NCBI RefSeq assembly: GCF_018141545.1
Contig: NZ_CP064357.1
Location: 124,001 to 188,000 of the forward strand
DNA from: Miltoncostaea oceani
GTDB lineage: Bacteria > Actinomycetota > Thermoleophilia > Miltoncostaeales > Miltoncostaeaceae
Direction of reading: 5' to 3'
Length of the DNA stretch: 64,000 bases
Both the position numbers and the translations under genes were made by a program. Position 1 is the stretch's first letter, and every line of letters begins with the position of its first letter. The notes under the pieces are model-generated. The model was not told the origin of the DNA and ran no database searches. It worked only from the letters and a program-made list of their open reading frames with translations. Positions 26,702 to 51,887 of the stretch are shown piece after piece.

Positions 26702-26759
26702 CGCCTGCAAGTATTGGCAGGTTCCCGGACGGCACGAGCCCCTTCCCCGTACCGCCTCG

Positions 26760-34148: not shown

Positions 34149-34163
34149 GCGGATCAGGATAGC

Positions 34164-34185
34164 AGTCCTTATAGGTATAAGGACT
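34164..34185. promoter_or_regulatory. hipBA operator palindrome
   Basis: AGTCCTTATA, GG, TATAAGGACT: a perfect 10-bp inverted repeat with a 2-base spacer, 16-37 bases upstream of the hipB start. It contains TATAAG-like sequence that could be the -10 element, so binding of HipB would block transcription. Its low GC is conspicuous in this window. Confidence 0.8.
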
Positions 34186-34245
34186 AGAATCATGGTTTGA
34201 CGATCCGCGAACTCAGCCTGTCGACCTGCTCTGCGGGGTGCGCGG

Positions 34246-35720: not shown

Positions 35721-36692
35721 ATGTCGGCTTTGTCGCAACGGAGAGATTGCGTCCTGTTTGTCGTCCTCGCCGCCGCGGTGGCGTTCCTTCTGGTCGCCGT
35801 CGGCTGCGGCAGCGGAGGCTCCGAGGCGGAGGGAGCGGACGGGGACCTCGAGGGTCCGAGCGTCTATGCCGAACAGGTGGAGGGGCCCCTGAACCGCCTC
35901 GGGACCTCAGCGACCCGGATGGGGGTGGCGTTGCTGTCGGCCTCCGAGTCCGAGGACCTGGTGAAGGTCCGCCGGACCGCTGACTCACAGATCCGCCTGG
36001 TCTCGCAGATCCAGTCGCGCATCGGGGCACTCACTCCCGGGGATGGCGACGCCCAGGATCATCGTCGCCTCCGCAACGCCGTGTCGCTCGAGCGCCAGTA
36101 CCTCGGGCGCCTCGTCCGGATCACCTCCGGATCACCGGAGCGCGGACTGTCCCAGCTCCCGGCAACCCGGGCCCTCGGGGAGCGGATGATCGAGGCCTAC
36201 CGCGGCTTCTACCGCGGCGCGCCGGATGGGATCCCACAGGGCGTGACCGACGCCGGCCTGCTGGACCTCTCCGGTGTGCGGCTCGCCCTCCAGGACGCCG
36301 TCGCCGAGAACCAGGCCGAGGAGGCCGCCTCCACCCGCTCCGCGCCGGCGCCGTTGCCTTCGCCGGTCTACCCGAGAGGCCCGGTCGTCAACGAGGAGGC
36401 CGAAGCGGACCGCATCTTCCGCAACATCTCCCGCGGGGACTACTCGGACCTCGGGGCGGCGGAGACCCTGTTCTCTCAGCTCCAGGGGACCTCGGATCCG
36501 CTGCGCGGCAATGCGGCCTTCAACCTCGGGATCCTGCGCTACGCCGCGGGCGACTGCTCGGGAGCCGTGTCCGCCTTCGGATACGCCGCGTCGGTCTCCG
36601 GTAACGCGACCCAGAACGCGATCCGGCAGCGGGTCCTGGACGACGCCTCCCAGACCGGTTGTGGCATCCCCGTGGCGTCTTTGATCGGATGA
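35721..36692 (+). CDS. Helical-domain family protein B: lipoprotein with TPR-like end
   Basis: 323 residues. A lipoprotein signal ends at Cys29 (FLLVAVGC). The shared helical domain covers about 50-200 (GPLNRLGTSATRMG, RRLRNAVSLERQYLGRLVRI, EAYRGFYRGAPDG). After a Pro-rich linker, the C-terminal 100 residues (ETLFSQLQGTSDPLRGNAAFNLGILRYAAGDCSGAVSAF) look like a tetratricopeptide pair. TTG 35715 is an alternative start; neither has a strong ribosome binding site. Its helical domain is closest to the next gene's, so the pair looks like a tandem duplication with different end modules. Confidence 0.78.
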   Translation: MSALSQRRDCVLFVVLAAAVAFLLVAVGCGSGGSEAEGADGDLEGPSVYAEQVEGPLNRLGTSATRMGVALLSASESEDLVKVRRTADSQIRLVSQIQSRIGALTPGDGDAQDHRRLRNAVSLERQYLGRLVRITSGSPERGLSQLPATRALGERMIEAYRGFYRGAPDGIPQGVTDAGLLDLSGVRLALQDAVAENQAEEAASTRSAPAPLPSPVYPRGPVVNEEAEADRIFRNISRGDYSDLGAAETLFSQLQGTSDPLRGNAAFNLGILRYAAGDCSGAVSAFGYAASVSGNATQNAIRQRVLDDASQTGCGIPVASLIG

Positions 36693-36719: not shown

Positions 36720-37616
36720 ATGCGCGCCCGTGACACCGTCGTCTCGATCATCGCCGCCGTCGCCGCGTGCGCTCTCCTGGCCGGCTGCAGTGGCGGAGGA
36801 TCATCGGACGGAGGCCAGCCTGAAGGCCAGGCAGATGACTCCGACAGTGCCTACGCCGCCCAGCTGAAGCCGCCCTTGAACCGCCTCGGCGAGTCGGCGA
36901 ACAAGATGGGCCAGGTGCTGCTGTCGGCTTCGGATGAGTCGGATGTGGTGAAGGTGCGCCGCGCTGCGGACTCGCGGATCGGCCTCGTCTCACAGGTGCA
37001 GTCACAGGTCACCGAGATCGAGGTCCCGGACGGCGAGGCCCAGACACAGCGACTCCTGCGCAACGCGATCGCGCTCGAGCGCCAGTACCTGGGGCGCCTC
37101 GTCCGGGTCTCCTCCGGCGATCCCGAGCGAGGGCTCACGCAGCTGCCCGCCACGCGCGCGCTCGGTGAGCGGATGATCGAGGGATACCGCAACTTCTACC
37201 GCGTCGCGCCGGAAGGGGTCCCACGGGTCGTGACGGACGCCGGCCTACTCGACCTGTCGGGACTGCGCAGCGCCCTCCAGGACGCGGTCCCGGAGCCGGA
37301 GCCCGCGCCAGCTCCCACCCCGCGCCCGACGCCTCAGCCTGTTCCGGTGCCCTCGGGGTCCGCGGGGATCGACTACGACATCGTGGACAACTCCGGCGGC
37401 GAGGGCGTCCGATACCGGTACTCGCCGGTCCTGTCGAACCTGGTCCCGGGGAACGGTCCCTTCGAGGGCGACCAGCTCTCGATCAGCTGCTTCGTCGATG
37501 GCGAGTTCGTGCGCTCGACCAGCTACTGGGCATTCCTCAGCAACGGCTACTACGTGCCGGCCACCTACCTGAGGTTCAGCTACAGCGGGCCGGTCATCGG
37601 CGCCCGCTACTGCTGA
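36720..37616 (+). CDS. Helical-domain family protein C: lipoprotein with beta end domain
   Basis: 298 residues. ATG 36720 has GGAGAG upstream. The lipobox Cys23 (CALLAGC) anchors it outside. The helical domain (about 45-190: PPLNRLGESANKMG, LLRNAIALERQYLGRLVRV, EGYRNFYRVAPEG) is strongly similar to that of protein B. A proline-rich linker leads to a different end: a small beta domain with ISCFVDGEFV, YWAFLSNGYYVP and a final cysteine (ARYC). It is followed after four bases by a serine hydrolase gene, so the two are likely an operon. Confidence 0.78.
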   Translation: MRARDTVVSIIAAVAACALLAGCSGGGSSDGGQPEGQADDSDSAYAAQLKPPLNRLGESANKMGQVLLSASDESDVVKVRRAADSRIGLVSQVQSQVTEIEVPDGEAQTQRLLRNAIALERQYLGRLVRVSSGDPERGLTQLPATRALGERMIEGYRNFYRVAPEGVPRVVTDAGLLDLSGLRSALQDAVPEPEPAPAPTPRPTPQPVPVPSGSAGIDYDIVDNSGGEGVRYRYSPVLSNLVPGNGPFEGDQLSISCFVDGEFVRSTSYWAFLSNGYYVPATYLRFSYSGPVIGARYC

Positions 37617-37620
37617 GCCG

Positions 37621-38970
37621 ATGGCCGACGTCCAGGTACTCAGCCCGCACGCGGCGGAGGCCTCCGACGGACGGATCGTGATCGTCGCACCCGCCGGTAC
37701 CGAGCGGGTGCGGCTCACGATCGACGGGGAGCGGGCGAGCCCGAGGGTCGTGGCCCGGCGCGCCTCGGACGGTGGGGTGCGCTTCGAGCTCCAGAGCACC
37801 GCCGTCGACCGCGAGGGCGCCGAGCTCTCCCTCGAGGCGCTCGGTGAGGGCGGGGCGGTGCTCGGCCGGCAGATCGTCTCCGGAGTCCACCTGCTCGGAG
37901 AGGGTGCCTTCGGCTCGGCTGGTGCGCTGCGCCCGGCGCCCGAGGCGGCCGCCGCCGCGAGGCAGATCACCTCGGGCAGTTCCGCGCTCAGCGGGGTCAG
38001 TGTCGCCTGCTTCGGCGCCGGCAGCCTCGCCGAATCCGAGGCGCGCACCACGACGCGCGCCGGCAGCACCCTCAAAGCGGCGATCCTCCTCACCGCCCTC
38101 GCTCAGCGCGATGGTCAGGTGAGCGCCTCCCCGTCGTTCTCCACCTACCAGAGCGCGATCGTCGCCTCGGACAACGGGGCCGCGAACCTCGTCCTAGCTG
38201 AGGCCGGCGGGGGCGACCAGCAGGCCGGCACCGCGGCGACGAACGAGCTGATGGCCGACCTCGGCATGAGCGACACCGTCCTCGACGGCCCCTACATCCA
38301 GACCGCCGGACGCTCCCAGAAGCAGACGAGTGCCCGGGATCTGAGGCTGCTGGCGAGCGCCCTGCTCGAGACGGCACGCGACGGGTCGGGGGTGCTGTCC
38401 GAGCGCGGTGTCACCCGCGATGAGGCGCGCGCCGTCCTCGGCCTCATGAGCGCCGCGACCTATCCCGGGCTGATCCGCGAGCACGTCCCCGAGCCCGTCG
38501 CCCACAAGGCCGGATGGCTGGACGACCAGCAGAACGACCTCGCCCTGATCTTCGGCGGGCCCGGCGGGCCCTGCGCGGTCGGGATGGTCACCGAAGGCCT
38601 CTCGTTCTCCTCCGCCGACGTCCTCGGTGAGCAGGTGGCCGACCAGGTGCTCCCCGCCCTCGCAGCCGCCGGCCCTGATGACACCGCCCAGGCTCCGGAT
38701 CCGCCGGAGACGACCCCTACGGCCCCGGATGCGCCGGCGGCCACCAGCACCGGGACGAGCACCGCGCCTGCCCCCGCAGCCACCCCTGAAGGCGACGAGG
38801 AAGTCGCTCCGGTCGTGACCCTCTCCGATGAGGGCGACGGTGGCCCTCCGTGGATGCTGATCGGGGTGGCGAGCGTCGTCGTCTTCATCGTCGCGGCGCT
38901 CGTCGCCCGCCGCGCCCAGGTGGTCCGGCAGCGCCAGCGTCGCCGCGAGGCGCGTCGACGTGGCCGTTAG
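37621..38970 (+). CDS. Serine hydrolase of class A beta-lactamase fold, C-terminal TM
   Basis: 449 residues. An N-terminal beta domain (about 1-100) precedes a penicillin-recognition fold: S149-x-x-K152 (GSTLK), S183-D-N185 (ASDNGAANL) and HKAGWL in place of KTG. A Thr/Ala/Pro-rich linker leads to a C-terminal membrane segment (WMLIGVASVVVFIVAALVA) and a basic tail. The topology needs the catalytic domain outside, yet no signal peptide is visible, which is odd; the start may be misplaced or export may be unusual. It could act on peptidoglycan or be a non-lactam hydrolase. It follows protein C directly. Confidence 0.78.
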   Translation: MADVQVLSPHAAEASDGRIVIVAPAGTERVRLTIDGERASPRVVARRASDGGVRFELQSTAVDREGAELSLEALGEGGAVLGRQIVSGVHLLGEGAFGSAGALRPAPEAAAAARQITSGSSALSGVSVACFGAGSLAESEARTTTRAGSTLKAAILLTALAQRDGQVSASPSFSTYQSAIVASDNGAANLVLAEAGGGDQQAGTAATNELMADLGMSDTVLDGPYIQTAGRSQKQTSARDLRLLASALLETARDGSGVLSERGVTRDEARAVLGLMSAATYPGLIREHVPEPVAHKAGWLDDQQNDLALIFGGPGGPCAVGMVTEGLSFSSADVLGEQVADQVLPALAAAGPDDTAQAPDPPETTPTAPDAPAATSTGTSTAPAPAATPEGDEEVAPVVTLSDEGDGGPPWMLIGVASVVVFIVAALVARRAQVVRQRQRRREARRRGR

Positions 38971-39023
38971 GCCCCAGTCCGACCGACCCGCCAACGAGCG
39001 CCTACGTCATCAGGAGAGCCGGC

Positions 39024-39488
39024 ATGAAGGACATCAGGAGAAGGCGCGGGGCATTCGGAGGCATCGTTACCGGATGCTGCGTCGCGGTCGGATTGGTCAT
39101 GGGGGTGGCCCCGGGTTCAGCCCAGGCTCAGGACGCGAAGGCCGTATTCGACTTCGCCCGCGCCGGGTGTGCCTCCCAGGGCTGCGGAGTCATCCGTCCG
39201 GCCCGCTGGACGCCGAGCCGGGAACCCCGGTTAGGCCTCGGGATCGGGTTCTACAGGGTGAAGTGGTCGAACTGGAACCGGCCACAGGCGACCGGAAGGG
39301 GGCAGATCCGAGTCTGCGCCGGCGGATCCTGCCAGCGATCGAACGCCACCTTCGTCGTCTACCGGCCGACGTACTTAGTCCTCAGCGACTACTACTCGTG
39401 CCTGCGCTTCACCCGCACGACCCTCCCCGAGCTGCGCGGCGCGAGGATCGACATCAACCCGCGCCAGGACCCGTCGCCTCGTTGCTAG
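39024..39488 (+). CDS. Secreted cysteine-rich protein (paralogue of 42967-43479)
   Basis: 154 residues from ATG 39024, with AGGAGA upstream. A Sec signal (TGCCVAVGLVMGVAPGSAQA) is followed by GCGVIRPARWTPSRE, WSNWNRPQATGRGQIRVCAGG and YYSCLRFTRTTLPELRGARI. The IRPxxW, W-xW, ATGxG and YSC landmarks form a recurring actinobacterial secreted fold of unknown function. The same landmarks appear in the minus-strand gene at 42967-43479. Confidence 0.65.
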   Translation: MKDIRRRRGAFGGIVTGCCVAVGLVMGVAPGSAQAQDAKAVFDFARAGCASQGCGVIRPARWTPSREPRLGLGIGFYRVKWSNWNRPQATGRGQIRVCAGGSCQRSNATFVVYRPTYLVLSDYYSCLRFTRTTLPELRGARIDINPRQDPSPRC

Positions 39489-39540
39489 GCACCGCCCCCG
39501 TCATCTCGGCCGATGAGCCGCAAGTCCTGAGAGGACAACG

Positions 39541-39993
39541 ATGAGATCAGTCTGGTGCGCGTCGCTCCTGGCCTTTGGAGTGCTCGCGGTGTCGACGTCT
39601 GCCGCGTCGGCGAATGTCGGAGCCGCCTTCAAGAGCCCCAGCGGGAACATCCACTGCTTCACGGCGACTGACGAGTTCGCGAACCGCTCGTTCTTCTGTG
39701 CCGTCTTCTCGACGGCCAGGCCAGCGTGCCCCCATGGAGTCAGGGCGAAGTGGGCGAACGTCGACTCCCGCCGGGCAGCAGCGGTCCGGTGCATGTCCGC
39801 GGCGACCGCCGCGCACCTTCGCTCCGGAAGCGCGGGTGGCCGTCAGCCGACCCTCCGATACGGCCGCACCGCCCGCTTCTTCGAGGGGCGCGTCACGTGT
39901 ACAAGCCGCGAGACCGGCGTGAGGTGTGACCTGCGCTCGGGCTCGAGTCTGCGGATGAACAAGAGCCGCGTCGTCAGCTCCTCAGGGCGCTGA
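39541..39993 (+). CDS. Secreted DUF6636-like protein
   Basis: 150 residues, Sec signal (VWCASLLAFGVLAVSTSAASA). The mature domain opens with AAFKSPSGNIHCF and has paired cysteines (FFCAVF, PACPHG, VTCTSRETGVRCDL), the DUF6636 pattern. The same module closes the proteins at 50598-51887 and 53906-54598. GAGAGGACAACG precedes the ATG. Role unknown. Confidence 0.72.
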   Translation: MRSVWCASLLAFGVLAVSTSAASANVGAAFKSPSGNIHCFTATDEFANRSFFCAVFSTARPACPHGVRAKWANVDSRRAAAVRCMSAATAAHLRSGSAGGRQPTLRYGRTARFFEGRVTCTSRETGVRCDLRSGSSLRMNKSRVVSSSGR

Positions 39994-40245
39994 CCGACCC
40001 CTATGCCCCCACGAGTCCTGGAAGGGCTGAGTGAACGACATCCGACCCCCTACGTCCGCCGGCGGTCCGAGGGTCCTCGCCTGCGGGCGATCATGAGCCT
40101 CCCCTCCGGGCGTGTGTCCGAACCACCCGTCGAGTGGGCGCGCGCCGCACACTCCGCTCAGGTCCGCTGTTCATGTCGTGGAGCCATGCCGTCAGCCGCC
40201 CGGCGCGCTAACGGCATGGCTCACCGCAGGCGGAGCAGCCTCAGC

Positions 40246-41286
40246 TCACGGTTCGGCCCCGGTGAGAAGCGCCGGGACGGCCGGCGCGGTGCATGGCGCA
40301 GGAGTAGTGATCCGGTATGCCTCTGACCGGACCATCTCCATGCACCATGACGGGGCGTTCACGGCTGCGGGTTCAACGATGAAGTCCCGGATCGTGAGGC
40401 CGCGCAGGTCGGCGCCCTGGAGATCGGACGCCAGGAGGGATCCTCGAATCGTTGCACCGCGTAGATCCGCTCTGCGGAAGGATGCGGTCAGGGGCTGATC
40501 GATTACGGCGCCGCGTAGGTCCGCCCCGGACAGATCGGCGCCCTCGAGGTAAGGACCCATCCGGTCGTCGCCCTCGACTGGGTCCATGGCTGATTCGAGG
40601 CGGGCATTGCGGAGGTTCGCCTCGCGCAGGTCCGCATAGCTCAGGTCCACCCAGGCAAAGGAGGTGCTGTGTAGGTCCACGCCCCGGAGGCGGGCGCCCC
40701 GCAGTCGTGCCTTCAGGAGGTTCGCCCTCGGGCCGAGGAAGACGTTGCCGGCGCGACGCCAGCCTGGTGGTGCGGATGTGGGGAGGCCAACCACCTTGAC
40801 TGCCCAGAGGCCCGTCAGGACGGCCCCGGCGAACTTCGCCCGGGTGATGTTGGAACCGATCACCGAAGCGCCAGTCAGGTCGGCCCGGCGGAAGTCCGTC
40901 CTTTGGAGATAGGCGTACTCCATCTCCGCCTTCCTGAGATGGGCGCCGCGGAGGTCGGCCCCCTGGAGGCGGGCGCGTGTGAGATCCACCGCGCGCAGGT
41001 TCGCCCCGTCGAGCCGCGCCGATCTCAGATCAGCCCGACGCAGATTCGCTCCCCGCAGGTCTGCCTTCCGCAGGTCCGCCCCGCGCAGGTCCGCATCGAC
41101 CAGGTCCGCCCCGCGCAGGTCGGCACCGACACAGGAAGCATCAGGCCTGGGTTCGCACCCGGCCCCCGCCGATACGCCGGGCGCGGCGAGGGTGAGCGCC
41201 GCGGCAATCACTGCCAACTGGCCTGCGCCTCGCCATGTCCCGGAGATCCCGCGGGTTCGGGCTGCGCGACACTCGGCCACCGTCAT
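40246..41286 (-). CDS. Secreted pentapeptide-repeat protein
   Basis: 346 residues. A signal-like segment (GQLAVIAAALTLAAPGVSAGA) precedes about 35 pentapeptide units of A(D/N)Lxx type (ADLRGADLVDADLRGADLRK), a right-handed quadrilateral beta helix. A short non-repeat loop interrupts near 170-190. Pentapeptide proteins are usually scaffolds or DNA mimics in the cytoplasm; an exported one is more likely structural. The C-terminus carries two cysteines. It starts at 41286, overlapping the preceding gene by ATGA, and ends the long minus-strand operon. Confidence 0.85.
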   Translation of the reverse strand: MTVAECRAARTRGISGTWRGAGQLAVIAAALTLAAPGVSAGAGCEPRPDASCVGADLRGADLVDADLRGADLRKADLRGANLRRADLRSARLDGANLRAVDLTRARLQGADLRGAHLRKAEMEYAYLQRTDFRRADLTGASVIGSNITRAKFAGAVLTGLWAVKVVGLPTSAPPGWRRAGNVFLGPRANLLKARLRGARLRGVDLHSTSFAWVDLSYADLREANLRNARLESAMDPVEGDDRMGPYLEGADLSGADLRGAVIDQPLTASFRRADLRGATIRGSLLASDLQGADLRGLTIRDFIVEPAAVNAPSWCMEMVRSEAYRITTPAPCTAPAVPALLTGAEP

Positions 41287-41756
41287 CCCCCGTAGTTGAT
41301 GACCCGCACGAAGGTCGCCTTGGCGCCCTTACGCAGGCACCGCCAGTAGGCGTAGTCGATGCCTGTCGAGAGCTCCCGGTATCCGGCTGTGGAGCTTTGG
41401 GCGCTCTTGGCCCCTCGGGCCTGATCCCAGCTCCACCCGCCGCGACAGGTGAAGCCGTTGCTGCGAAAGGTCCAGGGGGCGGGGCTGGCAGTCGCCCGGT
41501 TCCTGGTCAGCGTTGCGAGGCGCCGCGCCGTGGGGCACTTGGTGCCGGTGGCACGGATGGCGAAGACCGTTTCGTAGCGGGTGAGGTCCTTGACGTCGGC
41601 GCACTTGTTCGCCGGCGCGGCGCTCGCCGTGGCGGGGATGAGGGCCGTTGCGCCTAACGCGATAGCGGCTATCACCGGACCCCGGAGCATCCGCCGCGCC
41701 CTCGGGGCGGAGGACCCCGGGCCTGCGGGCGGGTGGATACGCGTCGCTCTGGCCAC
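41283..41756 (-). CDS. Secreted protein of unknown function
   Basis: 157 residues from GTG 41756, chosen because AAGAGGAA precedes it; ATG 41690 would also give a signal peptide. The signal (MLRGPVIAAIALGATALIPATASA) lies about 23 residues in. The mature part has NKCADVKDLTRYETVFAI, GTKCPTARRLATL, FTCRGGWSWDQ and YWRCLRKG: two disulfides and a small alpha/beta fold common in secreted actinobacterial proteins. It overlaps the pentapeptide-repeat gene by ATGA. Confidence 0.7.
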   Translation of the reverse strand: MARATRIHPPAGPGSSAPRARRMLRGPVIAAIALGATALIPATASAAPANKCADVKDLTRYETVFAIRATGTKCPTARRLATLTRNRATASPAPWTFRSNGFTCRGGWSWDQARGAKSAQSSTAGYRELSTGIDYAYWRCLRKGAKATFVRVINYGG

Positions 41757-41782
41757 AGCGTTCCTCTTTCGTCGTCGGGTGC

Positions 41783-42910
41783 TCAGCGCACCGTGATGTA
41801 GTTGATGTCGCGCGCGGCGTAGCTGAGGCCGGTGTCGATGTCCCGGACCTTGACCAGGAGGCGCCAGAGCCCGGGGCGGAGGCGGTTGCGGGGGATCGTC
41901 GCCTTGGCCTGCATGCAGGCGGCCGTCGCGCGTCCCTGGACCTTGACCGTGCGGATCCGGGAGAACCCGCGGGGCCCGTAGTTGAGGGTCAGGTCGATGC
42001 GCTGGCGGTTGCCGCGGCCGCCGACCTGGCACCAGTTCGCGTAGATCTGGACTCCTCTGGCCGTCTGGCTGAGGCGGGTGTTGCGCACCTCTGGCAGGCC
42101 GACCGACGGGTCGCTGCCGCGGGTGACCCCGATGATCCAGGAGCGGAAGAGGCCGGCGTTGGTGTAGGCGGCCGGCGTGTCGCAGTTCGCCGTGCCGAAG
42201 CTGACGATGCCGAGCAGCTCGGTGACGCTGTCGAACCGCACCAGCGGTCCACCCGAGTCCCCGAAGCAGGAGTTGGCCTCGCTCTGGGGCAGGCTCGCGC
42301 AGAAGGTGCCGAAGGGCAGTCCAAGGACGCGGCGGCACTCGTTCGCGCCGAAGACCGTCACCTGACCCGTGAGGAGCTCATCCGGGTTGCCACTCTCGGT
42401 TGCGCCCCATCCGGCCACCCACGCCTTGTCGGGGCCGATGGTGCCGGGGCCGATCTGGTCCCCGTAGCTCGAGGAGATGGGCAGGGGAGCCGCCGGCACC
42501 CCCTGGGCGAGTTCCAGGAGGGCGATGTCGTAGGGCCGTCCGGCGCGTCCCCCAGGTCGGCGCGCGGGGTAGGGGATGACGCGTGTGACGGCGATCCGCT
42601 CCGCCGGCTGGATCTGACTGAGCACCGCGCGCCCGGCGCCGACCTGGACCTGCCCGGGCTCGATGAACCGACCGCGGTCCTCGACACAGTGGGCGGCCGT
42701 CAGGACATAGGTTGCTGAGACGAGCGTCCCGGCACAGAACTGGGCCTTGTAGGGGTCCGGCTGGGCCGGGTTCATCAGGGCGACCACGAAGGGCCAGGCC
42801 TCCGGGTTCGCCGGCTGCCCGAAGACGATCGCCTCTGCACGCTCGGTGGCGCCGAAGAAGGCCAGCAGCATCGCGAAGGCCAGGATCCAAGTGAGGACGA
42901 GGCGGCTCAC
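41783..42910 (-). CDS. Secreted trypsin-like serine protease
   Basis: 375 residues from GTG 42910, with an N-terminal signal (RLVLTWILAFAMLLAFFGATERAEA). The chymotrypsin fold shows IVFGQPANPEAWPFVVAL, the catalytic His (LTAAHCVED), Asp (DIALLEL) and Ser (CFGDSGGPL), and NAGLFRSWI at the end. A C-terminal extension of about 110 residues is beta-rich (IDLTLNYGPRG, LWRLLVKVRDID). The IVFG start after the signal would allow zymogen-type activation. TTG 42970, overlapping the upstream stop, is an alternative start and would couple the two genes. Confidence 0.9.
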   Translation of the reverse strand: MSRLVLTWILAFAMLLAFFGATERAEAIVFGQPANPEAWPFVVALMNPAQPDPYKAQFCAGTLVSATYVLTAAHCVEDRGRFIEPGQVQVGAGRAVLSQIQPAERIAVTRVIPYPARRPGGRAGRPYDIALLELAQGVPAAPLPISSSYGDQIGPGTIGPDKAWVAGWGATESGNPDELLTGQVTVFGANECRRVLGLPFGTFCASLPQSEANSCFGDSGGPLVRFDSVTELLGIVSFGTANCDTPAAYTNAGLFRSWIIGVTRGSDPSVGLPEVRNTRLSQTARGVQIYANWCQVGGRGNRQRIDLTLNYGPRGFSRIRTVKVQGRATAACMQAKATIPRNRLRPGLWRLLVKVRDIDTGLSYAARDINYITVR

Positions 42911-42966
42911 CAGGCGCTCGGGACCCTCAGATCGCTGCCGGGCGGGGCTCGAGGCGTCTCGGGCGC

Positions 42967-43479
42967 TCAACAGCTTGCCGCCCGGTAGGTCCCGTCGGTC
43001 CGCCATCCCGGCCGCTTGCCGAACGGGTTGCCTCTCGGGTAGCGCACCCGCACGGTCGCCCGGGTGAAGAAGAGGTAGGCGCCCTCGTCGGTCTGGCAGC
43101 GCCGCACCCGGGTCATCGTGAGCTGGGTCGGGTAGCGCCGGATCGTCGCATCGGCGCAGCTCGGCCGGCAGTTGTTGAACAGGCCGGTCCCCTTGCCGAC
43201 CGCGCGACTCTGCCCGTAGGAGGGCCAGCGCAGGCCGCGGACAAGGAGCGATCCGCCGGCGCAGCCGGGACTCCACTCGCGCGGCCGGATCGATCCCCCG
43301 TAGGTCTCGAGGCCGCACGCGGCGACGAGCACCTTCTCGGCGTGGGGCTGCTGGATGGACTCGGCCCCGCGGCCTGAAACCGGCACGATCGCAAGCAGCG
43401 CGCAGGCGCACGCCAGGAGCAGCGCCGCGGTGAGGACTGGAACCGAGGGACTCGGTCGCTCAGTCGTGTAGTGGTTCAC
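42967..43479 (-). CDS. Secreted cysteine-rich protein (paralogue of 39024-39488)
   Basis: 170 residues from GTG 43479, with GGAGG at good spacing. The signal (LTAALLLACACALLAIVPVSG) precedes GGSIRPREWSPGCAGGSLLV, LRWPSYGQSRAVGKGTGLFN, NCRPSCADATIRRYP and a RVRRCQTDEGAYLFFTRATV strand region. Landmarks and order match the plus-strand gene at 39024, so the two are paralogues. Unknown role. Confidence 0.68.
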   Translation of the reverse strand: MNHYTTERPSPSVPVLTAALLLACACALLAIVPVSGRGAESIQQPHAEKVLVAACGLETYGGSIRPREWSPGCAGGSLLVRGLRWPSYGQSRAVGKGTGLFNNCRPSCADATIRRYPTQLTMTRVRRCQTDEGAYLFFTRATVRVRYPRGNPFGKRPGWRTDGTYRAASC

Positions 43480-43568
43480 CGGGCGACCTCCGGGCGCCGG
43501 CTGTCGTGAGCGGGAGACACTTCGTGCACCGCGGTGCGGGGCCGCCCACAGTGATGCGCGCCTCGTCC

Positions 43569-44753
43569 TCACCGGCTGCGCCAGGCGACGCGCAGCTCCT
43601 TCGCACGGCCGGGGGTCCTGTAGGTCGTTCCCGACGCCGTGGTGAAGCTGACAGTGACGCGCAGCCATGCTCGCCCCGACCTCCAGATCTTCGGTGGAAG
43701 GGTCCAGCCGACGCTCGTCTGGGAGGGGCGCAGCCGCACGGTCCTCACAGCCGACCGGGATCCGGCGGGGGTGAGGTAGCGGATGCGTAGCTTCGCCAGG
43801 CGCCCGCCCGCGGCCCCCGGGGCGATGCGGATCGTCAGTGTCCGACCGGCTCGTCGGACTCCGGCGAGCCGAGTCTTTGGATCCAGCGCACGACTGATCG
43901 CCCCGACTTCCGGCTCCGTGCCTCCTCCGGTCTGAGGTGCGCCGCCCAGTCTGGAGTACGCACCGAAGTCGGTCACCATCAATGAGAAGCCGCCGGGCAG
44001 CTCAAGCAGGCCCGCGTAGGGTTCGGCCGTCGCGATCGGGCCCAGTACCAACATGGCCGGCCGATCGACGCCTGGGGTGTAGGGGCGGATGGCCTCCGGC
44101 GGGGGTGGCTCGATCCTGACCAGGTCGCTCCCGTCGGCTGCCTTGGTGACGGAGCTCGGGACCGTCAGCGGTGTCTGCCAACCCGGCCCCGCGGGCGTGT
44201 AGCGCGCCTCGTATCTCGCCGAGACCGGCGTCGTCCATGAGACCGGGACGCTCAGCCCGGCGCGGTGGTAGGTGTCGAGGTCCGTGGCCGGCCAGCTGGC
44301 GGACGCGGCGGGCTTCGGGCCGACCAGGAAGGCGTGGCCGCAGATCATCGGCGCGGCAGAGGAGTCATCGCTCACGCAGGAGCGGATCTTCCAGGCGCCG
44401 GCGGGGCGTGTGATGGTGATGCTGGGGTTGGTGCTCGGGGTCGTCTCGCACGGACTGAACAGTGGGCCGTCGTGGTCGAGGTCCCACGAGTAGAGGGCGG
44501 TGCCGACGACGTCGACGGGGTGGGCTGTGATCGTCACGGGCTCCCCGGGCGCCGGATTGGCAGGGGACACGGTGATCGTCGTCGGGAAGCCGACGGAGAG
44601 TCCGAGCGAGGGGAAGGCGAGGCAGATCGCTCCGAGGACCGCAACCACCCCCAGGTGCCGCAGGACTCGGAGCGACGTGGTCCGCTTGGCCGTGCTCCGA
44701 TCTGGATCATCGCGGCAAGCGGGTACGGAGATGCTGACCGTTGAGGGGATCAC
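43569..44753 (-). CDS. Secreted beta-sandwich protein (PKD-like)
   Basis: 394 residues. A hydrophobic segment (HLGVVAVLGAICLAFPSLGL) about 32-52 acts as signal or anchor. SPANPAPGEPVTITAHPV with LYSWDLDHDGPLF and ITITRPAGAWKIRSCVSDDS is a PKD-like domain. Two further beta domains follow, the last with GRTLTIRIAPGAAGGRLAKL. It starts at 44753, overlapping the serine hydrolase stop by ATGA. Probably a surface structural or binding protein. Confidence 0.72.
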   Translation of the reverse strand: MIPSTVSISVPACRDDPDRSTAKRTTSLRVLRHLGVVAVLGAICLAFPSLGLSVGFPTTITVSPANPAPGEPVTITAHPVDVVGTALYSWDLDHDGPLFSPCETTPSTNPSITITRPAGAWKIRSCVSDDSSAAPMICGHAFLVGPKPAASASWPATDLDTYHRAGLSVPVSWTTPVSARYEARYTPAGPGWQTPLTVPSSVTKAADGSDLVRIEPPPPEAIRPYTPGVDRPAMLVLGPIATAEPYAGLLELPGGFSLMVTDFGAYSRLGGAPQTGGGTEPEVGAISRALDPKTRLAGVRRAGRTLTIRIAPGAAGGRLAKLRIRYLTPAGSRSAVRTVRLRPSQTSVGWTLPPKIWRSGRAWLRVTVSFTTASGTTYRTPGRAKELRVAWRSR

Positions 44754-46222
44754 CGTGCCACCAGCCCTGCGATCCTCGAGCCGAGGCTTTGGCCCTGGCT
44801 GATGCTGACGCCGGAGCTGTCGTAGGTGAGCATGACGGCGATCATGGGTCCCCGGTCGGTGTAGATGATCCCGGCGCCGTGGCGGGCCGAGTTGATCCAG
44901 CCGTTCTTCTGGGCGATCGGAGCTCCGGAGGCGCCGCCGGCGAGCATGCTGACGTTGTCGGCCCGCTGCTGGGAGGAGAGCAGCCAGCCGAGCATCAGGC
45001 GTGCCTGGTGGGCGGTGAGGCCGGTCTGCGCCCGGGCGCCGGGTGCCCCGACCGCGGAGGCGTGGATGGCGTAGAGCATCCGCCCCATGTCCTGGGCTGT
45101 CGTGACCCGCTGGGAGACGCTCGGCGGCGCCCCACCCGATGACGCACCGGGAAGGGAGGGCTGGAGCTCGGTGCCGACGATGTACTCGCCGGGGAAGGTG
45201 CTCGAGCGGGCGCCGAGCCGGCGCAGGCCCTCCTGGGCGGTCGCCGCTCCGCCGAGGCGACGCAAGAGGTGGTTGTTGGCGAGGTTGCTCGACCAGCCGG
45301 CCATCGCCTTCAGGTCGTAGGCGTACGCCGACCGCGCGGGTGCGCCGCCGAGCTTGGTGATCGTCCCGGCCATCAGCCCGAGCTTCACCAATGAGGCGGC
45401 GGGGAAGGCGGCGCCGGCGTTGATGCCCGCCGCCTCGCCGGTGGTGAGGTCCTGGACCCAGGCGGAGCGGTAGCGCGGCCCGCCGGCGGTGGCGCGAGAC
45501 AACGCCGCGGCGAGGGTGCTGCTGCTGCGCGATCCCGGCGTCGAGCGCAGGCCGTTTCGGCCGAGGAGCCAGGCGCCGCGGGCCTGGACGCCTCCGACGG
45601 TGCGGCCTGCGCGGGTGAAGCGGATGCGGATGTCATAGCGCCCGTTCTCGCCGCGCAGGGAGAAGCGGGCACGTCCTGAGCGGATGTCGACGCGGGTCAG
45701 GGTGCGACCGTTGACGATGAGCTCGGCTTGGTCGGCGCGGCGGGGGGCGCGGGCGACGATCGGCCCGAAGAAGGCCTCGCTGTCGGTCGGGCTCATCAGC
45801 GGCCCGCTGCCCGGCTGGCCGCCTCCACCGGTGCGGCATGTCGATGCCCCGAGGGAGATCGAGCCGCGGGCGCCCTCAGCGGACCGTCGGCCAGCAGAGA
45901 CATCCGAGGAGGACGGGCGATCGATGCCCTCCATCTGGCGGACGCGCCCGGAGGCGTAGCGGGCGAGCGAGCGCAGGAGCACCCGGCATTCCGAGCTCAC
46001 CGGCGCACTCGAGCGCACGGCTTCCTGCAGGTCGCGGGCGGCGTCGTAGGCGCTCTGCGCGCCCTCGGGGGAGGAGGCACGCCCGGCGGCGGACTCGGCG
46101 GCGGGGTAGAGGGACCGGTGGGCTGACAGCAGCTCCGCGTCGGTGGCGAGGGCGCTCGGCGCGAGCGTCCCCGCGATCACCCCCGCGAGGACGAGGGCTC
46201 GAGCACCCGGCCGTGCCGGCAT
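44750..46222 (-). CDS. Secreted serine hydrolase of class A beta-lactamase fold
   Basis: 490 residues with a Sec signal (ALVLAGVIAGTLAPSALA). Helices at 28-100 and a beta domain about 165-220 precede the penicillin-recognition fold: S277-x-x-K280 (ASLVK), S311-S-N313 (WSSNLANNHLL) and KNGW in the KTG position. KTG changed to KNG, and AGWS in place of SDN, argue against a true beta-lactamase; a peptidase or esterase acting on the wall is more likely. Its ATG overlaps the stop of helical-domain protein D by one base (TGATG), so the two are made together. Confidence 0.82.
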   Translation of the reverse strand: MPARPGARALVLAGVIAGTLAPSALATDAELLSAHRSLYPAAESAAGRASSPEGAQSAYDAARDLQEAVRSSAPVSSECRVLLRSLARYASGRVRQMEGIDRPSSSDVSAGRRSAEGARGSISLGASTCRTGGGGQPGSGPLMSPTDSEAFFGPIVARAPRRADQAELIVNGRTLTRVDIRSGRARFSLRGENGRYDIRIRFTRAGRTVGGVQARGAWLLGRNGLRSTPGSRSSSTLAAALSRATAGGPRYRSAWVQDLTTGEAAGINAGAAFPAASLVKLGLMAGTITKLGGAPARSAYAYDLKAMAGWSSNLANNHLLRRLGGAATAQEGLRRLGARSSTFPGEYIVGTELQPSLPGASSGGAPPSVSQRVTTAQDMGRMLYAIHASAVGAPGARAQTGLTAHQARLMLGWLLSSQQRADNVSMLAGGASGAPIAQKNGWINSARHGAGIIYTDRGPMIAVMLTYDSSGVSISQGQSLGSRIAGLVAR

Positions 46223-47997
46223 CAGTTGACCACCTGGAATGAGCCGACGGCGCTGCCACTGACGTTGTTGGTGAGGTTGTTGACGGTCACGGCGACCTCG
46301 TAGAAGCCGAGCGCGAAGCCGTCGCCGAAGGTCATCGAGATGCTGTTGCAGGCGCGGGTCTGGGAGGCGTTGTAGCTGTCCTGGGCGATGGTCGCCCCAC
46401 CCCGGCGGATCTCGAAGGTGTAGAGGAAGTTGTTCACCGCCCCGGGCGTGCGGTCGCAGTACTCCGCGCCCACCTCGATCAGCGAGCCGAGGTCAGCCCC
46501 GTAGACGTTCGAGAGGACCGGGCCGCCGTCCACGCCGCCATCCCCGCCGGACCCACCGCCGCCCCCTGACCGCTCGTCGCGGTCAGCTTCCGCGGCGGTT
46601 TCGTCCTCGATGCGCTTGCGGTCCTTGATCGCGTCGTTGACGCCCGACAGATCGGCGAGGCCTGCTGAGGTGACCCCCTGGGGGAGGCTCGGGGCGAGGG
46701 CGAAGAAGGCCCGGTACTGGTTGAGGGTGCGCTGGGACTGGCTGCGCAGCCGCGCGAACTGCTCGCGCGCCGGGCCCGCCTCGAGGCCGTCGATCCGGGA
46801 AAGGGTCGTCAGGTAGGTGCGGTGGGCCTGGATGGCGCGCGAGAGCGTCCCGCGGGCGACGCGTTCCCTCGAGCGGCCGACCTGCAGGTCGGCGACACGG
46901 CCGCGCTGCTCCTGGACCACGGCGAGCTGCTGGGTCGCGGTCCGCGAGACGCGGGCGAGGTGGGCGGAGGTGGCAGTCCGTGCGAGCTGGCGCCCGGTGA
47001 TCTCCGCCGAGCGGTTCAGGCGTCGCACCGGCCCCGTCACGGCGGTGACGAACTCGGCGGAGGGTCCGCGGGTGTTCGCCCCCGCGGCTGCGGTCGGCTC
47101 GTCGTCCCCGCCGGCGAGCAGGAGCACTCCCAACCCGATCGCGAGTGCGGCGATGACCGCGGCCGCTGCGGGGAGCAGCCACTTGGGCAGGCTCGAGCCA
47201 GTGCCCTCACCGGGGGGCGCCGTCGGCGGTGGGAGGTCATCTCCCCGGCCGCCGAGTGGTGGCAGGGGCTCGGTCGGCTGCGATCGTGCGACATCCGCCG
47301 CGATCGCTCCGGTTGCGGCGCCGCTCGCTGCTGCGCCGACGACCGTCGTGCCACCCGTGGCCTCGCGGCCGACGAAGGCACGGAGCTCCTGTTCGATGAC
47401 CCCCTTGGGACCCTCGACGTACTCCTCTCCCTCGAGGATCCGAAGCGGGGTGTCGAGGACGACGGCGCAGCTGGCGGCGCCGGTCAGGGTGGCGCTCCGG
47501 AGGCGGCCGAAGTTCTTCTCGACCTCGATGTCATCGAGGGCATCGCGGCGCACCGAGAAGGCGATCACCCGGCCCTCACCGTCGTCGTCGACGCTGGCGT
47601 GGAGGCTCCGGGCGGGGACGGTGCTCTGCCAGACCAGCCCGAGCAGCCGCTCGGCGGTCAACGTGATCGCCCCGGTCCCGTGAGCGAGGGTCTGCCGGAC
47701 GACGGCGTTGTCCCCATCCCCGACGATCGGGATGACGACATCACCGGTCCCCACCTCATCGATACCCCGCAGGACGCTCAAGGTGAGGGCTCCGGCGGAG
47801 ATCACCGCCTCGATCTCCTCACCCGGGTCGAGCGGTCGCGCGTGCAGCGCGCCGGCGTCCGTCACATGGAGCTCGAGGCCGAGTTCCTCATCGCGTGCCT
47901 CACCGGCGCTCACCTCGAGTGGCGCGTAGAGGATGTCGTCCGGTGGCTCGTCTGCGGGACGACGCGGGGATGGTGGGTAGGGGTTGCGATCGCTCAT
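46222..47997 (-). CDS. Helical-domain family protein D: PH-like-TM-helical-beta domain
   Basis: 591 residues. The cytoplasmic part (about 25-215) has bacterial PH-like strands (SLHASVDDDGEGRVIAFSVR, then DDIEVEKNFGRLRSATLTG). A Pro-rich linker leads to one membrane segment at 273-297. Outside is the shared helical domain (about 320-460: GPVRRLNRSAEITG, AHRTYLTTLSRIDG, YRAFFALAPSLPQ). A Gly-rich hinge precedes the same C-terminal beta domain as protein A (YCDRTPGAVN, RACNSI, NLTNNVSGSAVGSF). It is coupled to the serine hydrolase downstream. Confidence 0.78.
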   Translation of the reverse strand: MSDRNPYPPSPRRPADEPPDDILYAPLEVSAGEARDEELGLELHVTDAGALHARPLDPGEEIEAVISAGALTLSVLRGIDEVGTGDVVIPIVGDGDNAVVRQTLAHGTGAITLTAERLLGLVWQSTVPARSLHASVDDDGEGRVIAFSVRRDALDDIEVEKNFGRLRSATLTGAASCAVVLDTPLRILEGEEYVEGPKGVIEQELRAFVGREATGGTTVVGAAASGAATGAIAADVARSQPTEPLPPLGGRGDDLPPPTAPPGEGTGSSLPKWLLPAAAAVIAALAIGLGVLLLAGGDDEPTAAAGANTRGPSAEFVTAVTGPVRRLNRSAEITGRQLARTATSAHLARVSRTATQQLAVVQEQRGRVADLQVGRSRERVARGTLSRAIQAHRTYLTTLSRIDGLEAGPAREQFARLRSQSQRTLNQYRAFFALAPSLPQGVTSAGLADLSGVNDAIKDRKRIEDETAAEADRDERSGGGGGSGGDGGVDGGPVLSNVYGADLGSLIEVGAEYCDRTPGAVNNFLYTFEIRRGGATIAQDSYNASQTRACNSISMTFGDGFALGFYEVAVTVNNLTNNVSGSAVGSFQVVN

Positions 47998-48050
47998 GCC
48001 GGGACCTTGCTGGTGTCGGAAGGGTGGGAGCGTTCAGCCGGCGCGGGTCC

Positions 48051-48482
48051 TCAGGACCCGCCGCGGAGGTTGAACCGCTTGCACGAGCTGTGCTGGGAGG
48101 GGGAGCCGTTGACGTTCTGGGTTGCGGCCCAGCAGAGGCGAGCCGGCTGGGAGCGCAAGTTCCACATCCCGCCGAACCACGACGTCACCCCACCACTGGT
48201 CCAGCCGGAGTCGCTGCCGTCGCAGACGTTGATCCGGTGACGCCCGATCGCGCGCACGACGCGCCAGCCACCGGTGTTGTAGTTCGGCACCTGGAGCTGG
48301 ACGCGGACCAGCGCGGTGCAACTGGAGGCCCCTGGCGGCGAGCTCACGACCCCCGTCGCCTCGAGGCGGTAGCCGTCGTTCTGGACGATTCGCGGCACCG
48401 TGATCGGCACGGCGGCGGCGTTCGCGGCGAGGGTGCCGAGTCCGATGGCGAGGGCGAGGGCGCAGATGCGGTGGAGCTTCAT
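48051..48482 (-). CDS. Small secreted protein
   Basis: 143 residues from ATG 48482, with GAGG upstream. A signal (ICALALAIGLGTLAANAAA) precedes a beta-rich domain with SSCTALVRVQLQVP, HRINVCDGSDSGW, RLCWAATQ and QHSSCKRFN, i.e. two likely disulfides. No known family. It lies in the minus-strand operon between protein D and the propeller-like protein. Confidence 0.65.
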   Translation of the reverse strand: MKLHRICALALAIGLGTLAANAAAVPITVPRIVQNDGYRLEATGVVSSPPGASSCTALVRVQLQVPNYNTGGWRVVRAIGRHRINVCDGSDSGWTSGGVTSWFGGMWNLRSQPARLCWAATQNVNGSPSQHSSCKRFNLRGGS

Positions 48483-48492
48483 CGGGAGTGCC

Positions 48493-49443
48493 TCACAGGT
48501 CAGGAGGTGGCTCTGCGGGGGGTGGCGCAGCGGGAGGTGGCGCGTCGGGGCCGATCGCGAACCCGTTGGCGCCGCGGTCGGGGTAGAGGAGCTCGCTCGA
48601 GCCGGGCTCGGCGTCCGGGAAGATGCGGACGTCCGACCGGCCTCGCAGCGTCGATGCGACGACCAGGTCCCCCGTGCTCGTCCAGCCGAGGTCGTTGACA
48701 CTCACGGCGGGCCCAGGCTTCCAGACAGCGTGCCAGGCGCCGGGGCGACCAACGAGGACCTGGGCGCCGCCGCGCTTGGGCGCGCGGACGACCGCGAGGC
48801 GCCCCGTCGCCGAGTAGGCCGGAGAGGTCCAGGTGGGGAATCGGTCCTTGGCGTGGCGCCGCGCGTGTCGCCAGGCCGCCCGCAGCGGCAGCTGGGGGTA
48901 GGCCGACAGGCGCCCCACGCGCAGGCTCAGGTAGTTGCCACCCGGCGGGTAGTAGCTGTACTGGCTGACGGCGACAGCCCCGCCCGGTGAGACGGTGCCC
49001 TCGAGGCCACCATGCAGGTAGCGGGTCACCCGCACCTCGGTGTCGAGGCGCCATACCGAGGTGCTCCCCCCGGTGCCGTTGCTCGAGCTGGTCAGGAGCT
49101 CCAGACCGGGCCCCCTCCGGATCCAGCAGCCGCTCTGGCCGCGGCGCAGACGGTCCGGGATGAAGGAGACCTCAGCAAAGACGATCGCCGTATCCGGCGA
49201 CTCCGGTTGGAAGACGATGCAGTCATCGAGGCCGGGATCCCGCTGGCTCAGCCAGACCCGTCCGGCGCCGTCGATCGCGGCGGACCGGATGTCACCCCAG
49301 TCGGCGAGCGGGGAGAGTTCCTGCCCGAGTGTCCCGAGCTGAGCCTCACCGTCGGCTTCGACGGTGACGATCTGATCGGCGGCGGCGACCGCGGGCAGGG
49401 CCAGGCAGGTGAGGGCGGCGAGGAGGGCGGCCCGCGTCCTCAT
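48493..49443 (-). CDS. Secreted beta-propeller-like protein
   Basis: 316 residues with a Sec signal (ALLAALTCLALPAVAAA). Recurrent blade-like strands carry DGAGRVWLSQRDPG, VSPGGAVAVSQYSY, YSATGRLAVVRAPK and TSTGDLVVASTLRG, consistent with a six-bladed propeller of TolB type. The end is Pro-rich. It starts at 49443, overlapping the amidase stop by ATGA. No catalytic residues are evident; a binding role is likely. Confidence 0.68.
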   Translation of the reverse strand: MRTRAALLAALTCLALPAVAAADQIVTVEADGEAQLGTLGQELSPLADWGDIRSAAIDGAGRVWLSQRDPGLDDCIVFQPESPDTAIVFAEVSFIPDRLRRGQSGCWIRRGPGLELLTSSSNGTGGSTSVWRLDTEVRVTRYLHGGLEGTVSPGGAVAVSQYSYYPPGGNYLSLRVGRLSAYPQLPLRAAWRHARRHAKDRFPTWTSPAYSATGRLAVVRAPKRGGAQVLVGRPGAWHAVWKPGPAVSVNDLGWTSTGDLVVASTLRGRSDVRIFPDAEPGSSELLYPDRGANGFAIGPDAPPPAAPPPAEPPPDL

Positions 49444-50597
49444 CGGCGCAGCAGGCCGCGTGAGCGCAGGTGGTCGATCACACCGCGGCTGACGGCGGTG
49501 GCGATCAGGTCGGTCCGGGCGAGGAAGGCGTCGTCGGTGGTGCCGGCTCCGGCTTCGACGATTACGCGGGCATCGGCGCGGGTCCGGTAGAAACCGTAGT
49601 AGCGCATCATCCGCGGGTTGCTGTTGCGCGTCTGGACACCCGTGAAGCGCCCGCGGGCGCCGTTGGCGGATGTGTAGATCCGCGAGAACCGGCTCGAGAC
49701 GCGGTTGGCGAGGTCGCGTGAGCGGCGCTCGACCACCCCCGAGACCGTCGTCGCCGGACGGTGGGGTGCCGAGTCCGGGTAGGGAACGGGACTCGGGTCC
49801 CCGCCGCCCTCACCGCGGTAGTAGTTCTCGTTGGCCCCGGTGATCGCGTGGCCGAAAGCCGCCGCACCTTGGGGGATGTCGTGGTGGAGGCTGATGAAGA
49901 CCGCCCCACGCGCGCCGCTCGGGGTCACCTGTCCGGGGGTCTGGCGGGCGTTCACCCCGGCGCGGCGCAGCTGGGCGACGACCTTCGGGGCGAGCGCCGT
50001 GGTGAAGCCGATCTCCGAGCCGAAGGGCCCGGATGATGCGCCGGTCTGGTCGCGGTAGCCGGGCTCGCGGGGGTCGGCGTGCCCAGCCTGGACCCACACG
50101 ACCGGACGCGTCCCGGCGCCGGCACGCGCGGTCTCCGACCCTGACCCGTCTGACGGGGAAACCGGGGTCGCGTCAGGGGCGCCGGCCGGATCGGCGCCGG
50201 CCTTGCCGCCCGCCGCCTCGGGGTTCGCCGGTGTGGGTGTCGCCCCGTCTCCCGGCGCCGCCCCGGAGGGGGCCTCCGGCCCGCTCGGTGTCGCGGGGGT
50301 GACGGGATCGGGGACGGCCGGGATCGGCTCGAGCTGGACGCGCACCGGTGCCGCCGCCTCGCCGGTGGCCTGGGCGGCCGCCGGCGATTGTGCTCCGTCG
50401 CCTCCATCGCCGACCACCTGGTAGGCGCCGAAGGCGACGGCTGCGACAACCACGAGCCCGACGCTGCCTCCGATCAGCCGTTGGCGCTTCACCCGCTGGC
50501 GGCGCTCGAGGTCGAGTCGCCGCCATTCGCGTCGGTGCAGGGCCGAGATGTCCACCACCGGTGGCTCGTCGCGCTCCAGGTCGTCGAAACGCCCCAC
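49440..50597 (-). CDS. Membrane-anchored N-acetylmuramoyl-L-alanine amidase
   Basis: 385 residues. A basic N-terminus precedes one membrane segment (LIGGSVGLVVVAAVAFGAYQVV, about 42-63) and a long Pro/Ala linker. The C-terminal Amidase_3 domain (about 195-385) has the zinc ligands His (VQAGHAD), Glu (FGSEIGF) and His (SLHHD), and the catalytic Glu (VIVEAGAG). It would cut the bond between muramic acid and L-alanine in peptidoglycan. Its GTG start directly abuts the TAG of helical-domain protein E, so it is coupled to it. Confidence 0.88.
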   Translation of the reverse strand: MGRFDDLERDEPPVVDISALHRREWRRLDLERRQRVKRQRLIGGSVGLVVVAAVAFGAYQVVGDGGDGAQSPAAAQATGEAAAPVRVQLEPIPAVPDPVTPATPSGPEAPSGAAPGDGATPTPANPEAAGGKAGADPAGAPDATPVSPSDGSGSETARAGAGTRPVVWVQAGHADPREPGYRDQTGASSGPFGSEIGFTTALAPKVVAQLRRAGVNARQTPGQVTPSGARGAVFISLHHDIPQGAAAFGHAITGANENYYRGEGGGDPSPVPYPDSAPHRPATTVSGVVERRSRDLANRVSSRFSRIYTSANGARGRFTGVQTRNSNPRMMRYYGFYRTRADARVIVEAGAGTTDDAFLARTDLIATAVSRGVIDHLRSRGLLRR

Positions 50598-51887
50598 CTA
50601 GAACGGGTTGTACTGATCGCGGTTCAGGAAGAACCCGTTGCCGGAGGCGTTGCGGCAGGTGATCCCGTCGAAGGCGGAGTCGCAGGTGAAGACACCGCTC
50701 TGCCAACGCGAGCCGTAGGGGACGACCTGACCACCGGAGGCGACACCCGACCCGGTGCTCGGCGAGCCGACGCTCGGAAGCGCGACACCGAAGCCGTCGT
50801 TGGAGGAGGAGCAGAACAGGGTCCCGCCGGAGAGCTGGCAGCGCAGGTTCCCGGTCGGGCTCTGGAAGCTCGGAGAGTTGTAGGGGCCCGGTGAGCGGGT
50901 GGTGCTGCCGCCGCTGCGGCTCGGCGGCGGCGCCTCCGCATCGGCGATCGCCGACTGGGTCGCGCTGCGGAGCCCCGCGGTGTCGGCGAGGTCGGTGGTG
51001 GTGATGGCGTCCGGCGCGCCGGGGGCGAGCTGGAAGAAGGTGCGGTAGGAGGCGACCGTCGCCGCGCCGGCGCGGCGAGCCTGGTTGATCTGGCGCAGCT
51101 TGGCCTGGGTCGGCTCGCCCGAGGAGGCGCGGCCGAGTGCGACCAGGTAGCGGCGCTGGTTCGCTGCGGCGGCGATCAGGCTCCGGTGCGCCCGCTGATC
51201 AGCTTCGGTCACCGAGATGCGCGTCAGCGATCCGCGGGCGGTTTCGACGACGTCGAGCTGACGCTCCGCGGTCCGGTTGAGCTGGCGGATCTCACCCGGC
51301 TCGGAGACACGGGCGAGGGACTTGCCCGTGGCGACCGCGGACTTGGTCAGCTGGTCGAGCGGCCGGTTGATCTGGGTGGCGTAGGTCTCGGCCGATGCCC
51401 CCGCGGCGAGGTTCTCGTTCCCCTCGTCGTCGCCTCCTGAGAGCAGCAGGAAGCCACCGATCGCGATCATGCCGAGGACGAGGACCCCGATGAGGGTCGC
51501 CGCCCAGACCGGCAGCCCCGCGATCTTCGCCGGCGGCGGAGGCTCGGGCGGGCCGATGTGCCCTCCATCGACGCGTCGGGGCGGCACAGGCGGGGGAGGG
51601 GCGGCCGGCGGGGCCGCCTCGGCGCGCAGGACCTCGGCTTGGACCGGCTGCGAAGCAGCCGCGGCTGCCGGTGCGATCGCGGCCGGGCCCTCACCGAGGA
51701 TCCGCCGCCGGGCCTCACCGAGCTCGGTAGCGGTGATCTGGTTCGACTCGTACAGCCGATCCAGGGCGTTCAGTCGTTCGCTGAGCGAGGTCTCGAGGCC
51801 GCTCGGGCCGGAGGGCGTCTCGCCCGCCTCCGGGAAGGGGGCGGTGTCATCGCCGTCCGGCGGCGGTGCGGTGCTCTCGTCGCTCAT
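50598..51887 (-). CDS. Helical-domain family protein E: SHOCT-TM-helical-DUF6636
   Basis: 429 residues. The SHOCT-like pair (ALDRLYESNQITATELGEARRRIL, about 41-64), a Pro/Ala linker and a membrane segment at 127-149 resemble protein A, as does the helical domain (about 165-305: RPLDQLTKSAVATG, RRYLVALGRASSGEP, YRTFFQLAPGAPD). The C-terminal module is different: SPSFQSPTGNLRCQLSGGTLF with FCSSSNDGFGV and FTCDSAFDGITCRN, a DUF6636 domain. It heads the long minus-strand operon and is followed without a gap by the amidase. Confidence 0.78.
   Translation of the reverse strand: MSDESTAPPPDGDDTAPFPEAGETPSGPSGLETSLSERLNALDRLYESNQITATELGEARRRILGEGPAAIAPAAAAASQPVQAEVLRAEAAPPAAPPPPVPPRRVDGGHIGPPEPPPPAKIAGLPVWAATLIGVLVLGMIAIGGFLLLSGGDDEGNENLAAGASAETYATQINRPLDQLTKSAVATGKSLARVSEPGEIRQLNRTAERQLDVVETARGSLTRISVTEADQRAHRSLIAAAANQRRYLVALGRASSGEPTQAKLRQINQARRAGAATVASYRTFFQLAPGAPDAITTTDLADTAGLRSATQSAIADAEAPPPSRSGGSTTRSPGPYNSPSFQSPTGNLRCQLSGGTLFCSSSNDGFGVALPSVGSPSTGSGVASGGQVVPYGSRWQSGVFTCDSAFDGITCRNASGNGFFLNRDQYNPF

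Follow-up and report, generated by a model that had tools for sequence, protein, structure and literature searches.

Predicted membrane-anchored helix-bundle proteins encoded beside cell wall enzymes in Miltoncostaea oceani and two other genera of its order

INTRODUCTION

The control of peptidoglycan-cutting enzymes is a long-standing question, and to our knowledge few dedicated partners of these enzymes are known outside model organisms. Several described systems come close to the one presented here. CwlD, an Amidase_3 enzyme, has the lipoprotein GerS as its activator, and the amidase LytH depends on the transmembrane protein ActH (PMC8496864). The PASTA ectodomain of the Ser/Thr kinase PknB binds muropeptides and determines where the kinase localises (PMC3145798), while in Corynebacterineae and mycobacteria hydrolases are controlled by the FtsEX-RipC and SteAB systems (PMC6705760, PMC10694151, PMC12977500).

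Here we describe a family of proteins found in a 64,000-nucleotide stretch of the Miltoncostaea oceani genome (the window) that have in common a domain of ∼150 amino acids, which we call HD. The family is small and unnamed and consists of predicted membrane-anchored helix bundles, often encoded directly 5' of genes for wall-trimming enzymes. Its likeness to GerS-CwlD would be that of a membrane-side partner to an Amidase_3-type amidase, but HD is all-helical, its genes adjoin those of the enzymes and the one family stands beside three enzyme lineages. LytH-ActH would likewise be an amidase with a membrane partner, and LytH is one of the two weak PDB profile matches of the amidase family considered below; the HD proteins differ in carrying one transmembrane (TM) segment or a lipid anchor. 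As in the PASTA kinases, one HD protein, encoded in genome G008, runs kinase-TM-ectodomain and adjoins a wall-enzyme gene, but its ectodomain is HD plus a DUF6636-like part rather than PASTA. The FtsEX-RipC and SteAB systems may be analogous as membrane partners controlling wall hydrolases in Actinomycetota, although the proteins involved are of types other than HD.

RESULTS

The genome comprises 4.54 Mb in three contigs, and the window is part of the 815-kb contig C2. The five HD proteins, A to E, are homologous (pairwise BLAST E-values of 6e-15 to 1e-89), and an HD profile searched against the whole genome returned exactly these five and nothing else, all encoded within 23 kb. When compared with the Pfam and NCBIfam models, none of the five had a match at or above cut-off. 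The HD genes and the enzyme genes beside them are as follows.

Protein A, 28839..30137, minus strand: cytoplasmic N-terminus, SHOCT-like below cut-off; TM segment at 118-136; HD; C-terminal Ig-like 'CDRTPG' module
Protein B, 35721..36692, plus strand: lipobox AVGC; HD; weakly TPR-like C-terminus
Protein C, 36720..37616, plus strand: lipoprotein (LAGC); HD; C-terminal SH3-like module
blaC, 37621..38970, plus strand: Ig-like domain; Beta-lactamase2 catalytic domain; C-terminal TM segment
blaD, 44750..46222, minus strand: signal peptide; N-terminal region of ∼100 amino acids; Ig-like domain; Beta-lactamase2 domain
Protein D, 46222..47997, minus strand: N-terminal region of ∼230 amino acids; TM segment at 277-295; HD; Ig-like 'CDRTPG' module
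ami, 49440..50597, minus strand: N-terminal TM segment at 41-59; Pro/Ala/Thr-rich linker; Amidase_3-type domain
Protein E, 50598..51887, minus strand: N-terminal region; TM segment at 131-149; HD; DUF6636-like C-terminus

B ends 27 nt upstream of C, for which an alternative GTG start at 36717 is possible, and E lies just beyond the interval 36720-50597 treated in the earlier note, the end of which is the start of the amidase gene. Hydropathy and lipobox scans place an anchor ahead of HD in every case, a single TM helix in A, D and E and a lipobox in B and C, from which HD is predicted to be extracytoplasmic. The C-terminal modules vary among the proteins and HD stays constant. The SH3-like character of the C module was assigned by eye, with the best family matches below threshold and Pfam support absent; the E C-terminus scores 20.5 bits against DUF6636 (cut-off 27), and residues 1 to 230 of D have no family match and a low-confidence predicted structure with some β-strands. 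The genes around A, when read, included no wall enzyme. Other features of this part of the contig are an IS605-type OrfB/TnpB-like gene adjoining an IS4/5-type transposase (25289-27536, minus strand), a HipA-like gene preceded by an HTH gene, likely a toxin-antitoxin pair (32606-34277, minus strand), and a gene for a protein with an RNA_lig_T4_1 domain (52611-53759, minus strand).

AlphaFold2, run on C with six rows, gave helices at residues 18-43, 48-73, 81-105 and 109-136 with pLDDT mostly above 90 and a C-terminal part of low confidence; HD is accordingly predicted to be a four-helix bundle. The model of D contains a similar bundle followed by a C-terminal β-sandwich that matches Ig- and CARDB-like domains in a structure search. 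The best structural match to the HD bundle was Listeria LntA, with Z scores of at most 10.6, which is within the range that the tool reports for unrelated helical bundles. The sensor domains of Tar, MCP2201, Vc1313, LytS and TorS have an arrangement like that of the predicted HD, at Z scores (8.3 to 9.3) that are level with unrelated bundles and below the level separating helical bundles from one another. We rejected an origin from phages or plasmids: D had no match among the phage sequences searched, and the plasmid search with E returned one 41-residue match, between its C-terminus and a Nocardia plasmid.

Three of the HD genes are followed on the same strand by a gene for a predicted wall enzyme. 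A gap of 4 nt separates C from blaC, D and blaD share 1 nt (TGATG), and E and ami abut at 0 nt (TAG, then GTG). The earlier note had pointed to these juxtapositions, and open reading frames, homology and family matches bear them out. They also bear out its remark that the two hydrolases are unlike in length and architecture, as listed above, and blaC and blaD fall into separate deep lineages of the Beta-lactamase2 tree. Both match Beta-lactamase2 (PF13354, cut-off 22 bits), at 53.3 bits for blaC and 79.7 for blaD, and both retain SxxK, S[DS]N and KxG, which we take to be the SxxK, SxN and KxG motifs of the Beta-lactamase2 and serine PBP fold that are expected of active enzymes. Assignment to the class A β-lactamases proper was rejected, with 23.6 and 24.8 bits against an NCBIfam equivalog cut-off of 200; a sequence search of the PDB returned nothing for blaD and no more than a weak match for blaC. 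A scan found no signal peptide in blaC, which does have a C-terminal TM segment with a basic tail, and its location is therefore unsure and its export unexplained, a point against partnership with C; its relative in genome G006 starts with a signal peptide by reading of the sequence.

The amidase by itself scores 14.2 bits against Amidase_3 (PF01520, cut-off 27), with 10 of 14 members of the ami family matching that model at an E-value of ≤0.1 (best, 1.3e-7). All 14 aligned rows keep the candidate positions QAGH, E, SxHxD and VxxExG, presumably the His/Glu/His/Glu metal and catalytic positions of Amidase_3. A third amidase-family domain of the genome, ∼46% identical, forms the end of a 1,218-residue protein on the same 815-kb contig (L063:2114-5770, plus strand). 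There is also a wall-type pair without HD in the window, in which a gene reading as PASTA-like plus DUF6636-like, with no Pfam match (53906-54598, minus strand), overlaps a CHAP gene (54595-56202, minus strand) whose product ends in a weakly PASTA-like segment (15.3 bits, cut-off 23.2).

Across the 42 genomes of the order, the HD profile matched four; the match in G009, to a protein reading as ATPase-like, was rejected as a chance one, leaving three of 42, this genome (G000), G006 and G008. With the best nine candidates per genome scored, 14 of 399 genomes matched in the class at an E-value of ≤0.01 and five of 396 in the phylum at ≤1e-4. The class matches in G371, G349 and G194 were rejected on reading (two glycosyltransferase-like, one acetolactate-synthase-like), those in G251, G267, G392 and G232 (class) and G407 (phylum) are weak, and the only plausible ones outside the three genera are weak zinc-ribbon-TM-HD-like proteins in G056, G091 and G259. 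When C and its relative from G006 were scanned against a contig collection, one locus was returned, the G006 contig itself (MAG KLAP93).

Among the 42 genomes, a wall enzyme lies immediately downstream on the same strand in five of seven HD transcription units, namely B-C, D and E here, G006:C22 and G008:C7, while A and G006:C8 have no such enzyme; both of these carry C-terminal modules. The neighborhood survey proposed in the earlier note, in which a lack of enrichment for wall enzymes would have told against the note's interpretation, supports it in part: pairing predominates within the order, but where the stretches around the distant HD-like genes were read (G056 and G259) no neighbor reads as a wall enzyme, and in G091 the contig ends inside the gene. 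HD is missing from 39 of the 42 genomes, the ami family is present in 37 and blaD-type enzymes in 27, so the enzymes do not need HD.

The C-type and E-type pairs recur in G006 and G008, respectively. In G006, the gene for a C-like HD lipoprotein overlaps by 1 nt a Beta-lactamase2 gene whose product has a C-terminal hydrophobic stretch resembling that of blaC, and the two enzymes form a clade (100/100) well apart from the order's remaining Beta-lactamase2 proteins, although the tool warns of long branches joining at that point. In G008, a single protein comprises kinase, TM segment, HD and a DUF6636-like part, and its gene has a 1-nt overlap with that of an amidase 63% identical to ami. The kinase scores 169.6 bits against Pkinase, with VALK, HRD, DFG and APE motifs intact, and the TM segment was assigned by reading of the sequence. 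HD is thus the ectodomain of a Ser/Thr kinase in this genome; PASTA repeats gave no match in the protein at an E-value of ≤0.1, and HD aligned there instead. HD identity to A across genera is 30 to 33%, and in the HD tree E (with A) joins G008 and C (with B and D) joins the G006 copies, at 90/91 and not starred. The amidase tree places ami and the G008 copy as sisters (97/91, or 92/89 without two long-branch rows), and we rejected the possibility that ami is a recent copy of the amidase on contig C1, since joining the two gives a p-AU of 0.008. In G006 and G008, the other neighbors of the pairs differ. The presence of the same pairs in other genera indicates that the adjacency is more than chance and is not a quirk of one genome.

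Nineteen stretches around amidase loci were read, with the amidase gene called in 17, and only that of G008 has HD upstream; the HD-free amidases adjoin genes reading as trpA, def, thrC and others. The two HD-paired amidases begin with a TM segment and long linker (window) or a lipobox and linker (G008). An N-terminal hydrophobic stretch is present in 10 of the 15 HD-free amidases and missing from five, perhaps with their starts called too far downstream, and in most the catalytic domain follows the hydrophobic stretch directly, as in a simply secreted enzyme. Membrane anchoring tracks HD pairing only loosely, since among the HD-free enzymes L074 and L075 combine a hydrophobic stretch with a longer N-terminus, and a lipobox-like motif occurs in L066 and L067. 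Near the β-lactamase-fold genes, we observed small exported proteins that are alike by eye, at 39015-39488 (plus strand, by blaC), 42967-43668 (minus strand, by blaD) and L036:11859-12320 (minus strand, by the G006 pair), and a DUF6636 protein that stands alone (31.5 bits), encoded downstream of blaC (39541-39993, plus strand).

The D pair behaves differently. The window blaD is 63% identical to an HD-free paralogue on contig C1 and groups with a copy from another species of the genus (99/97), and HD was absent upstream of the 19 other blaD-type loci read, some of which end before or inside the upstream gene. In G035, the gene preceding a blaD-type gene, with a 4-nt overlap, encodes a trypsin-like lipoprotein that ends in the Ig-like module of D and A. 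This 'CDRTPG' module occurs three times in the 42 genomes, in A, in D and in the G035 protein, and the G035 enzyme belongs to a clade other than that of the window blaD (99/96). By sequence, a pairing of the Ig-like module with blaD-type enzymes of separate descent is thus found in two genera, the other domain being HD in one and a protease in the other; either it had two origins or it is old with many losses. The earlier note took the helical proteins as the paired element, which needs amending for D, where it is the Ig-like module that recurs. Its suggestion that pairing arose more than once is supported by the three lineages of blaC, blaD and ami and with the separate descent of the G000 and G035 enzymes. 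A single ancestral HD-bla pair behind all the pairs is unsupported, with blaC and blaD in separate lineages.

DISCUSSION

We infer that the most economical view of these loci is that the HD membrane proteins are partners of the enzymes encoded behind them, which they may regulate, sense or tether through physical contact, docking or signalling, and we give a direct functional partnership a probability of about one half. In this view, HD would be an extracytoplasmic module, a four-helix bundle fixed to the outer side of the membrane through a TM helix or lipid anchor, and would read or set the condition of the wall or of the enzyme. Docking of the enzyme or its substrate would fall to the C-terminal module, whether SH3-like, DUF6636-like or Ig-like, and the TM forms would pass a signal inward, to the kinase in G008 or the SHOCT-like N-terminus in A. 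This sensor-plus-docking detail is tentative and less likely than not. The kinase fusion in G008 favors a sensor role for HD, and the G035 case, together with the recurrence of a C-terminal module with an enzyme type, suggests that docking is the task of that module; this second point is confounded by shared descent in C and E, so that docking by the module turns on the one dissociation, between D and G035.

The best-surviving alternative, which we regard as unlikely, is that HD proteins are surface proteins in a region rich in exported proteins, with neighbors that are merely co-expressed and have no direct tie to them. The window offers some grounds for this, as trypsin-like, CHAP, DUF6636 and pentapeptide genes nearby are of exported or wall-type families, the five HD genes are confined to one short region and A is unpaired, but such an arrangement leaves unexplained the same pairs amid different neighbors in G006 and G008, the clustering of the paired amidases and the pair in G035.

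It is less probable again that HD is a stalk or anchor only, a spacer holding C-terminal modules that bind wall or protein away from the membrane and so positioning the enzyme without sensing. Variable modules on an unvarying HD, the apparent membrane anchoring of both HD-paired amidases and the fact that D and the G035 protein have the C-terminal module rather than HD in common would all fit a stalk, but HD conservation across genera exceeds what a plain spacer would need, and its place as a kinase ectodomain speaks against a passive role. That HD proteins are inhibitors, which like immunity proteins would keep an additional and potentially lytic enzyme copy in check, is improbable, for although blaD and ami are additional members of families found across the order and the tight junctions suggest a fixed ratio, the kinase fusion is unexpected and neither A nor G006:C8 has an enzyme to go with it.

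A more speculative and doubtful extension is that HD is a new wall-sensing ectodomain in the role that PASTA plays in other actinobacteria, reading fragments released by the enzyme encoded behind it. Such proteins would form closed sense-and-cut loops, with interchangeable docking modules matched to the enzyme type and interchangeable outputs (kinase, SHOCT-like or none). In the literature searched, DUF6636 goes unmentioned and Miltoncostaeales and peptidoglycan do not appear together, and HD may still be described elsewhere. In an actinobacterial order that has received little study, one domain family has apparently become linked with three lineages of enzyme and with a receptor kinase, and the HD-enzyme pairs, with natural unpaired paralogues as controls, would allow a test of whether membrane partners license wall enzymes.
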